The notes beneath the pieces were generated by a model. The model was not told the origin of the DNA. It worked only from the letters and a program-made list of their open reading frames with translations, and made no database searches. Below are positions 38,287 through 40,195 of a stretch of 64,000 bases of DNA, in pieces. Position numbers and translations under genes: made by a program. The number at the start of each line of letters is the position of its first letter. The first letter of the stretch is position 1. Origin of the DNA: Aureibaculum algae (GTDB lineage: Bacteria > Bacteroidota > Bacteroidia > Flavobacteriales > Flavobacteriaceae); assembly GCF_006065315.1 (NCBI RefSeq), contig NZ_CP040749.1, forward strand, positions 3,052,501 through 3,116,500, read 5' to 3'.

Positions 38287-38350
38287 AGCTATATTGTTTT
38301 GGTTGATGATTAAGTCGGTAGGTAGTTCTATTTCTTACAAAAGAAAAAAA

Positions 38351-38660
38351 AGTAGGCTATAAGCCGGATTCTGTAATTCAGTTGAACTGAAATCCTTATC
38401 ATTTATCTACGTTATACATTACTGCATAACTTTAGCTGTTTACCCCTTGGAATTGGACGCGTACCCTTACCCTTTCGGGACTCCAATATACGTAACATTG
38501 CATCTCATAGAGTTTACCTGGTTTCACTACAGCCTAACTGTACTTGCTTTCTGTTGCACTTGTCCTTGGCTTACGCCAGACGGATGTTATCCGCTATGAT
38601 TCGCTGTGATGTCCGGACTTTCCTATTCCACCAGAAGTGAAATCGATAAGGTAGCCTACT
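38351..38660 (-). ncRNA. rnpB: RNase P RNA, class A
   Basis: The minus strand, about 310 nt, carries the conserved core AGGAAAGTCCGGAC and the matching 5' and 3' ends AGTAGGCTAC and ATAGCCTACT, which pair to form P1. Internal features include the CCGAAAGG tetraloop region and ACAGAATCCGGCTTA near the 3' end. A T run at 38350-38341 terminates it. This is the catalytic RNA that trims the 5' leaders of tRNAs. Confidence 0.95.
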
Positions 38661-38708
38661 TTCTGCAAAAATAGTACTAATAAAAATGTGATTCTATAAT
38701 TATTGGAT

Positions 38709-38787
38709 AAAAAAAAATCCCACTCCTTATTTAAAAGGAGTGAGAAAATTGCTATGAAAAAGAAATATTACTGAACTATTGCTCAGC
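38709..38787 (-). ncRNA. Putative small RNA 1 of a tandem pair
   Basis: Minus strand: a perfect -7 box TATATTTG (38799-38792), a 5' hairpin TATTGCTGAGCAATA (38791-38777), a conserved linker TTTCTTTTTCATAGC then AATTTTC, and an 8-bp terminator stem (38721-38728 with 38735-38742) with a 9-nt T run. The predicted transcript is about 80 nt. The same order, linker and terminator type recur in the neighbour at 38916-38989, while the hairpins differ in sequence but pair perfectly. That is strong evidence for a transcribed RNA. No known family was identified from memory with certainty. Confidence 0.6.
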
Positions 38788-38915
38788 AATACAAATATAT
38801 AAACGCCGACTATATCGTTTTATTGCAACTTATAAGTAATTAATGATGAAATAAACAAAAATCAACATAACTACTTGACATACAAAAAGTTACAATATGT
38901 TAAAAATTTGTTATA

Positions 38916-38989
38916 TAAAAAAACCCACTCTAAATTAGAGTGGGAAAATTGCTATGAAAAAGAAAAAGTGTTGAATTTTACAATTCAAC
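38916..38989 (-). ncRNA. Putative small RNA 2 of a tandem pair
   Basis: Minus strand: a perfect -7 box TATATTTG (39001-38994), a 9-bp 5' hairpin (38982-38990 with 38969-38977), the shared linker CTTTTTCATAGC then AATTTTC, and a 9-bp terminator stem (38924-38932 with 38936-38944) followed by seven T. The predicted transcript is about 74 nt. It lies 125 nt upstream of copy 1, between dnaJ and rnpB. Confidence 0.6.
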
Positions 38990-39061
38990 ATCGCAAATAT
39001 ATAAATTTTATTAATAAAAACAGTGAAAAATTATCAAATATATGATTATTTTAAACTTATT

Positions 39062-40195
39062 TTATGAAAACATATCTTTGACCTTTTCAAAAAATGATTT
39101 ATCTGAATGTGTTGGTATTGGTGCAAAATGTTCATCATCTTTCATTGATTCGAAAAAAGCTTTTTGATCTTTTGACAAGTCCTTTGGAGTCCAAACATTA
39201 ACATGAATTAATAAGTCTCCTTTACCGTAACCTTCTAAACTTGGTAAACCTTTACCTCTTAATCGCAATATTTTTCCGGACTGTGTCCCTGCTTCTATTT
39301 TTATTCTGACTTTACCTGTTAAGGTATCAATTTCCATACTTTCACCAAGTACTGCATCAGGAATACTCACATACATATCATAGTGTAAGTTATTACCCTC
39401 ACGTTTTAACTTATCATGTGGAATTTCTTGGATAACGACCAATAAATCTCCAGATATACTATTTCCAGGAGCTTCATTACCTTTACCTGATACTTTTAAT
39501 TGAACACCATCTACAACTCCTGGTGGAATTTTAATAGAAACACTTTCTTCTTTCTCTATTAAACCTTGAGCATTTGAACCACTTGGTCTGTGATCTATCA
39601 TTTGACCAGCACCTTGACACGTAGGACAAGTAGTTGCTGTCTGCATTCTCCCTAATATAGTATTGGTAACTCTAGTAACTTGACCTTGACCATTACATGT
39701 ACTACAAGTCTTATAAGTAACTCCCTTGGCTTTAACCAAACGCTTTACTTTTACCTTTTTTTCGACACCATTAACAATTTCTTCTAATGTTAATTTGACA
39801 CGAATTCTAAGATTACTTCCTTTAACTCTAACGCCTCCTCTACTTTGACCACCTCCGCCAAAACCAGAAAATCCGCCGCCGCCGCCAAAAGCACCACCAA
39901 AAATATCTCCAAATTGACTAAAGATATCGTCCATGTTCATACCGCCACCGCCAAAGCCTCCACCTTGACCACCTTCAAATGCAGAATGTCCAAATTGATC
40001 GTAACGAGCTTTCTTATCAGCATTACCTAATATTTCATAAGCTTCTGCTGCTTTTTTAAATTTTTCTTCTGCCGTTTTATCATCAGGATTTTTATCTGGA
40101 TGATATTTAATAGCCTTCTTTCGATATGCTTTCTTTATCTCTGCAGGAGATGCACTTTTTTCAATTCCTAATATTATATAATAATCTTCCTTCAA
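39062..40195 (-). CDS. dnaJ: Molecular chaperone DnaJ with a reduced zinc-finger region
   Basis: DnaJ delivers unfolded proteins to DnaK and stimulates its ATPase. The 377-residue protein has the J domain with HPD in IKYHPDKNPDD, a Gly/Phe-rich linker (residues about 72-125) and the C-terminal substrate-binding domain (NNLHYDMYVSIPDAVLG). The zinc region has only two CxxCxGxG repeats (CSTCNGQG, CPTCQGAG) rather than four, so one zinc site rather than two is expected. This appears normal for the flavobacterial branch. It lies 30 nt after grpE in the same operon. Confidence 0.93.
   Translation of the reverse strand: MKEDYYIILGIEKSASPAEIKKAYRKKAIKYHPDKNPDDKTAEEKFKKAAEAYEILGNADKKARYDQFGHSAFEGGQGGGFGGGGMNMDDIFSQFGDIFGGAFGGGGGFSGFGGGGQSRGGVRVKGSNLRIRVKLTLEEIVNGVEKKVKVKRLVKAKGVTYKTCSTCNGQGQVTRVTNTILGRMQTATTCPTCQGAGQMIDHRPSGSNAQGLIEKEESVSIKIPPGVVDGVQLKVSGKGNEAPGNSISGDLLVVIQEIPHDKLKREGNNLHYDMYVSIPDAVLGESMEIDTLTGKVRIKIEAGTQSGKILRLRGKGLPSLEGYGKGDLLIHVNVWTPKDLSKDQKAFFESMKDDEHFAPIPTHSDKSFFEKVKDMFS

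Follow-up and report, generated by a model that had tools for sequence, protein, structure and literature searches.

A small RNA family beside dnaJ in Flavobacteriaceae: an invariant 18-base linker mirrored at start codons and gene ends suggests that stress and cell-surface proteins share a switch

Introduction

What are the two similar small units that lie between dnaJ and rnpB in Aureibaculum algae, and on which genes, if any, do they act? The question arose in a window, by which we mean the whole stretch of DNA analysed here (64,000 nucleotides, positions 3052501-3116500 of a source genome of 5.17 Mb in one contig). Flavobacteriaceae are a major group in oceans and soils, and to our knowledge their post-transcriptional control has been little mapped. 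The small RNA (sRNA) family described below is present in most sampled genomes of this family; since candidate targets and candidate sponges can be named for it, it is directly testable.

Two units between dnaJ and rnpB

The dnaJ-rnpB interval holds two homologous minus-strand units of 75-85 nt each, 200 nt apart, at the place where an earlier note on this DNA had put a tandem pair. In both copies a TATATTTG box comes first; a 5' hairpin and then the linker CTTTTTCATAGCAATTTT follow, and a terminator with a T run closes the unit. The features are as follows, where the boxes fit TAnnTTTG, which we take to be the -7 promoter consensus, and the ORF at 39062-40195 is presumed to be dnaJ.

38345..38662, minus strand: rnpB (RNase P RNA, bacterial class A), downstream neighbour; Rfam RF00010, 194.9 bits
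38710..38745, minus strand: terminator hairpin and T run, rnpB-proximal copy; fold
38712..38792, minus strand: sRNA, rnpB-proximal copy; covariance model match E 1e-13, copy in the model's seed set
38744..38762, minus strand: linker, putative seed CTTTTTCATAGCAATTTTC, rnpB-proximal copy; same in both copies, predicted fold
38765..38792, minus strand: 5' hairpin of 12 bp, rnpB-proximal copy; predicted fold
38792..38799, minus strand: putative -7 promoter box TATATTTG, rnpB-proximal copy; sequence
38917..38944, minus strand: terminator hairpin CCCACTC..GAGTGGG and T run, dnaJ-proximal copy; fold, helix 2 covaries
38917..38994, minus strand: sRNA, dnaJ-proximal copy; covariance model match E 8.1e-16, copy in the model's seed set
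38944..38962, minus strand: linker, putative seed CTTTTTCATAGCAATTTTC, dnaJ-proximal copy; same in both copies, mostly unpaired in the predicted fold
38969..38990, minus strand: 5' hairpin of 9 bp, dnaJ-proximal copy; fold, helix 1 covaries in the family
38994..39001, minus strand: putative -7 promoter box TATATTTG, dnaJ-proximal copy; sequence
39062..40195, minus strand: presumed dnaJ, upstream syntenic neighbour; ORF

Several parts of the earlier description hold: the box is perfect in each unit (38994-39001 and 38792-38799); the common linker is CTTTTTCATAGCAATTTTC, identical in both (38944-38962 and 38744-38762 in plus-strand numbering); and the CCCACTC-type terminator stem with its T run is present in both, the 5' arm being CTCACTCC with a G-U pair in one of the two copies. 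The 5' hairpins had been given as 7 bp and 9 bp; the 9 bp of the dnaJ-proximal copy stand, but the predicted fold of the rnpB-proximal copy has 12 bp instead of 7. Nor are the hairpin arms completely different between the copies, as had been written, because TG, TGA and TTCA are common to both in the alignment.

The fold z-scores against shuffled sequences are -8.2 and -5.3 for the two sRNAs. With up to three mismatches, GAAAATTGCTATGAAAAAG occurs three times in the window (the two sRNA linkers exactly), where 100 shuffles gave 0.17 on average, so the recurrence of the linker there is not chance. The transcript of the dnaJ-proximal sRNA perhaps starts near 38991, and no minus-strand ORF of at least 40 aa was found in the interval. 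Judged by sequence, the units thus show what is generally expected of a trans-acting sRNA, namely a promoter of their own, an intrinsic terminator and no ORF; a conserved accessible seed and mRNA complements above chance, which are also expected, are treated below. The locus titled Aureibaculum luteum (L094) is closely similar to the A. algae window, with rnpB 99% and DnaJ 98.9% identical.

Identity and distribution of the family

The RNA had been put forward, from taxonomy, as a possible member of the Rfam family Flavo-1, and the likeness lies in the taxonomic range that this name suggests; the difference is that there is no covariance model match. In the dnaJ-rnpB interval neither Flavo-1 nor any other Rfam family reached its gathering score, and among the 13 matches listed there at E <=10 none was near its family threshold and Flavo-1 was absent. 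Flavo-1 and the other Rfam families were accordingly rejected as the identity of the units, and we regard the chance of Flavo-1 membership as negligible. In the whole 64-kb window the gathering score was reached by RNase P alone. The other option of the earlier note, a new family, fits these results: the family is unrecorded, in that it matches no Rfam 15 family in the searches made, and a literature search of largely open-access work, with bioRxiv preprints outside its scope, found no publication on this RNA among the papers listed.

An exact search for CTTTTTCATAGCAATTTTC in the contigs of named genomes gave at least 118 stretches; among the matches listed, 80 are titled, mostly as Lutibacter, Tenacibaculum, Polaribacter, Flavicella, Aureibaculum, Lutimonas and other Flavobacteriaceae, with a few outsiders. 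In the loci collected, TTTTTCATAGCAATTTT stands at 166 distinct places, 150 of which satisfy a simple sRNA rule, while the remaining 16 include RNA B (see below) and unrelated loci. A covariance model, R1, was built from 32 type-I members. At E <=0.01 it has a match in 257 of the 299 family genomes (226/249 of good quality), mostly one per genome. In a wider sample of the order, 14 of 148 genomes matched, comprising 12 family genomes and two weak matches outside the family, and of the ten genomes of genus g146 among those listed, nine have no R1 match. The A. algae genome also holds a third, weaker member (R1 E 0.0028). This member (L008/L158, G000:C1:5168751-5168819, minus strand) has a CCCGTT-type terminator and orthologous-looking copies in the genus, and RNAs B and C carry an extension, AAAACGGG, to which the arm of its terminator is similar. 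Two metagenome bins, titled Saprospiraceae (L054) and Cryomorphaceae (L099), carry full sRNA-like units with box, hairpin, linker and terminator; either the range is wider than Flavobacteriaceae or these contigs are misbinned.

As for genomic position, dnaJ or rnpB is nearby in 46 of 122 exact-linker loci, and of the 54 loci found by the model, each some 3 kb long, 36 contain a DnaJ homologue, distant genera included; given these neighbours, the ancestral gene probably stood immediately 3' of dnaJ, and additional copies are dispersed in some genera. The same proximity to dnaJ in many genera, together with copies that are tandem or scattered in some, would suit a different reading, in which the units belong to the dnaJ mRNA as its 3' end or its terminators, or else form a dispersed repeat, and have no function in trans. 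We consider this highly improbable: 107 of 150 family copies have TAnnTTTG at a distance of 28-50 nt upstream of the linker (mean 4.8 and maximum 12 in 200 shuffles), the 5' hairpin covaries around an invariant linker, and copies without a nearby dnaJ retain the full architecture.

Covariation of the hairpins and constancy of the linker

To measure covariation, 98 model matches drawn from 76 sources were aligned, the alignment being fitted to the model; 92.6% of its cells pair, and two-sided changes affect 8/8 pairs of helix 1 and 7/9 pairs of helix 2. In this fitted alignment there are 442 double-change cells against 137 after shuffling, and the covariation score is 0.69 against 0.21 shuffled (none of 500 shuffles reaching it) and at most 0.14 with slid partners. 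The unfitted MAFFT alignment A4 agrees, with a covariation of 0.389 against 0.199 shuffled. Meanwhile, the linker columns are 100% conserved in alignment A6, for which some loci had been picked by their linker, and 46 of the 54 loci found by the model, some of which share one genome, also keep the linker exactly. A 5' hairpin that covaries beside a linker that stays fixed is the pattern of a structured RNA with a conserved middle, predicted to be unpaired.

Some copies vary in ways of their own. In the 5' hairpin region, TTCATAGC is repeated in 10 of 150 copies from 8 loci, 7 of them titled Lutibacter, against a shuffled mean of 0.09. AGACGT or AGACGC, a second conserved element, is found in the 5' hairpin of 25 sRNA copies from 20 loci (L039, L042, L045, L062, L100, L112 and others), and the 14 of these loci with listed titles are all Tenacibaculum. 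In addition, an sRNA-like copy in L327 (G086:C34, about 42.8 kb) repeats TATAGCAATTTTT, a second version of the seed, in its terminator loop.

Sites complementary to the linker

The complement of the linker, AAATTGCTATGAAAA, was counted in 15 genomes, giving 45 matches against 3 for the reversed pattern, and in 79 more genomes, giving 134 matches against 8. The 134 comprise 82 at model-found sRNA genes, 8 at further sRNA-like copies and 44 other sites. By scripted classes (ORF of at least 60 codons; at most 20 nt before a terminator; a simple hairpin rule), the 44 divide into 28 at ATGs that could open ORFs, of which L285 and L294 are doubtful and may be internal ATGs, 5 by terminators and 11 elsewhere without a clear role. 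In the same 79 genomes, the one-base variants gave 16, 7 and 9 matches for A, C and T at -3, and 18, 9 and 20 for A, G and T at -2. The reversed forms of two three-variant patterns total 53 and 29, or 10-18 per sequence, which is above the 8 of the reversed complement, so that some 8 to 20 matches to a 15-mer of this type can be expected by chance. Every one-base variant and every reversed count per sequence falls short of the 44 non-sRNA sites; the Poisson P is 2e-11 for a mean of 13.2 and 2e-6 for a mean of 20, both too small and to be taken as indicative only, because the genomes are related and not independent. For the same reason, sites in G093/G312, G321/G108 and G320/G107, which share a genus, and in G234/G156, which have matching targets, do not count as independent. 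In a weaker view of 23 non-family genomes, with at most one mismatch, there were 16 complement matches against 10 reversed ones.

It could be argued that the complementary sites function alone, as a translation-start or mRNA-end motif, and that the sRNA is a by-product or mimic. ATGAAAA is typical of flavobacterial starts, the searched 15-mer contains it, and 28 of the 44 sites lie at ORF starts, so composition could explain part of the start-codon excess. However, no one-base variant reaches the count obtained with G at -3 and C at -2 (44, vs 16 for A at -3), and these variant counts, although they are totals without position classes, argue against composition; moreover, the copies in 3'UTRs and loops are left unexplained by such a motif. 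We hold this explanation to be quite unlikely. Another reading, unlikely in our judgement, has a protein, perhaps of the RRM type, bind the linker, so that the RNA would serve as its scaffold or decoy. An invariant unpaired stretch of 16-18 nt between covarying hairpins would look the same, and a protein site could coexist with pairing; yet it predicts no exact complements at start codons, before terminators, in loops or in RNAs B and C, all of which occur.

The linker looks like a base-pairing seed, as judged from these counts and from its predicted duplexes with five tested sites, which range from -21 to -33 kcal/mol, a single mismatch costing about 7 kcal/mol. Covariation, distribution and complementary sites thus support what had been surmised at the outset, that the units are structured sRNAs with a conserved unpaired linker as target-pairing seed. 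In the A. algae genome itself, the exact 12-mer TTTTCATAGCAA has no complement at any evident start codon.

Candidate target genes

Genes for YceI, DUF5777 and fasciclin proteins recur at the complementary sites, which may stand at the beginning of the gene or at its end. In YceI genes (PF04264) the site is at the start codon in L296 and L298, which belong to one genus, and in L387, and in the 3'UTR, 4 nt past the stop codon, in L315. DUF5777 genes have it nearby in three genera: L268 and L372 show it behind the gene, whereas at L292 it forms the start codon of the next gene; PF19089 was scanned for L268 only and the L292 and L372 genes were matched to it by eye. For fasciclin (PF02469), the site is in the 3'UTR in L310, L312, L248 and L264, with L313 alike by sequence, and at the start codon in L299 and L269, which are of the same genus. 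The other start-codon genes encode GTP cyclohydrolase I, HlyD, a luciferase-like monooxygenase, MsrA, hemerythrin, thioredoxin, rhodopsin, a lipocalin-like protein, DUF2147 and others; 11 of the 30 scanned start-codon ORFs have no Pfam family, and one more, L279, has a sub-threshold match only. A crude rule finds a lipobox-like cysteine in 16 of the 31 proteins with the site at their start codon. In the genus of the window, the complement also lies between stop codon and terminator in L007, L198 and L229, the first two being 3'UTR-like sites, and L236 looks similar.

The recurrence was compared with 30 genomes taken blind to the pattern. The best YceI gene has the site at its own start codon in 1/30 (L387), and in L372, from the same set, the site follows the DUF5777 neighbour of YceI; the best fasciclin gene has the site in 0/30. 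A complement stretch of at least 10 nt is present in 3/30 best-YceI loci and 2/30 best-fasciclin loci, with meaningful placement in L387 and L372 only, and in one of the fasciclin loci, L355, the stretch belongs to the sRNA gene. The idea that fasciclin is targeted universally was therefore dropped, being unsupported in these 30 independent genomes, in each of which the best gene was considered.

Complementary RNAs and candidate sponges

Two further noncoding RNAs of the A. algae genome carry the complement of the linker.

L001:980-2060 (G000:C1, about 208.9-210.0 kb), minus strand: RNA B, structured, tandem copies
L003:1390-1720 (G000:C1, about 490.5 kb): RNA C, also in L025, L230 and L232

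RNA B is about 200 nt long, lies on the opposite strand, recurs at about 450 bp and ends in a terminator of its own. Within it, AACGGGAAAATTGCTATGAAAAAG is complementary over 21 nt to the dnaJ-proximal linker and the start of its terminator, exactly so in two tandem copies beside a third, diverged copy. RNA B is conserved throughout the genus; no Rfam family matches it at gathering score, and a sub-threshold rimP-leader match (30.2 bits, cut-off 47) overlaps its 3' part in L028. RNA C has a terminator and three linker-complement sites, TTTGCTATGAAAG, GTTGCTGTGAAG and GGGAAAATTGCTATGAAAAG, the longest of 19 nt; it is conserved in two aligned species (L003, L025), with L230 and L232 showing two more genomes, and is convergent with a neighbouring gene that we take to be DoxX-like. 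A chance match in a coding region was considered for L003/L025 and rejected, because the frames are full of stops, the three complement sites are conserved and a terminator is present. Across twelve further loci, including those of B and C, no Rfam family reached its gathering score.

At least two small RNAs present the complement in a hairpin loop. The one at L252:1501 (G018, minus strand) has a TATATTTG box, the complement in a hairpin loop and a terminator, and that at L246:1007 (G018, minus strand) has it in the loop of the terminator hairpin itself; both are candidate dedicated sponges. L265 and L316 are similar, less clear cases. Upstream of the complement in L291, L303, L321 and the target locus L282 stands GCAACC/AAACCT...TCTA/ACTA, presumably an ECF-sigma-like promoter, which suggests that some sponges may be stress-induced; the idea that such a promoter precedes every complement site was discarded, as it was seen at these four only. 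L317 (G156:C20, about 205.0-205.4 kb) has three tandem complement sites; a hairpin of the GCAGGGG/GCAGAGG type and an identical lead, ataaccaact, stand before every one of them.

Proposed mode of action and comparison with known systems

Computation shows the sRNA gene, how it is built, where it occurs, and that complementary sites are in excess and placed as described; from these we infer expression, repression and sponge action. The explanation that we favour, and consider likely, is that the two units are paralogues in a family of trans-acting base-pairing sRNAs that mask start codons and are titrated by sponges. The ancestral gene would follow dnaJ immediately on its 3' side and have a promoter of its own and an intrinsic terminator; the 5' hairpin and the terminator would need only to keep their pairing, and the 18-nt single-stranded linker between them would be the seed. 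This seed may pair with about 15-19 nt across the target start codon (AAAAUUGCU-AUG-AAAA), and the pairing would most likely block translation initiation by occluding the start codon. The putative targets appear enriched for envelope and stress proteins, namely YceI, the DUF5777 operon, fasciclin and lipoproteins. The complements before terminators, in loops and in RNAs B and C may be a second kind of target site or sponges that titrate the sRNA. Taken further, one 18-nt seed might serve unchanged across Flavobacteriaceae in a stress and envelope regulon whose site moves, from genus to genus, between start codon and 3' end of the same genes, with sponges feeding back in a family-wide RNA-RNA network, some from an ECF-like promoter and some by a complement presented in a loop; we offer this joint reading tentatively, with rather less than even confidence.

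It has been reported, in the available text of the source, that FopS/GibS of Bacteroides are multicopy sRNAs with a shared seed, a standard promoter and an intrinsic terminator, that in FopS a single-stranded seed at the 5' end comes before a lone terminator hairpin, that its pairing near the start codons of susC-like transporter mRNAs represses their translation, that RbpB binding is a FopS/GibS trait, and that FopS was deposited in Rfam (PMC11697453). As far as that description extends, the dnaJ-linked sRNA resembles FopS in phylum, shared seed and start-codon complements, the latter here from sequence alone; unlike FopS, it has a 5' hairpin before the seed, and most genomes have one copy. 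SusC was not found among the Pfam-scanned ORFs with exact 15-nt complements (30/31 start-codon, 10/14 upstream), and no Rfam match to FopS was found in the interval, which bears on FopS only if the Rfam copy used contains its model. Similarly, Rfp18 of Flavobacterium psychrophilum is described, in the portion of its report available, as a structured sRNA affecting secreted-protein mRNAs, with three stem-loops, pairing by the third and metalloprotease targets (PMC9723704). Compared by that description, the dnaJ-linked RNA is likewise a structured flavobacterial sRNA but has two hairpins and a mostly unpaired seed linker, and there was no protease among the Pfam-scanned candidate targets.

Enterobacterial start-region repressor sRNAs use a seed that pairs at translation starts and are titrated by sponges derived from 3'UTRs or tRNAs. 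No homology between them and the dnaJ-linked sRNA is expected, and what sets the latter apart is that the same gene families carry its site at the start codon in one genus and in the 3'UTR in another; if the site truly moves between the two, it would amount to a natural experiment on position in sRNA control.
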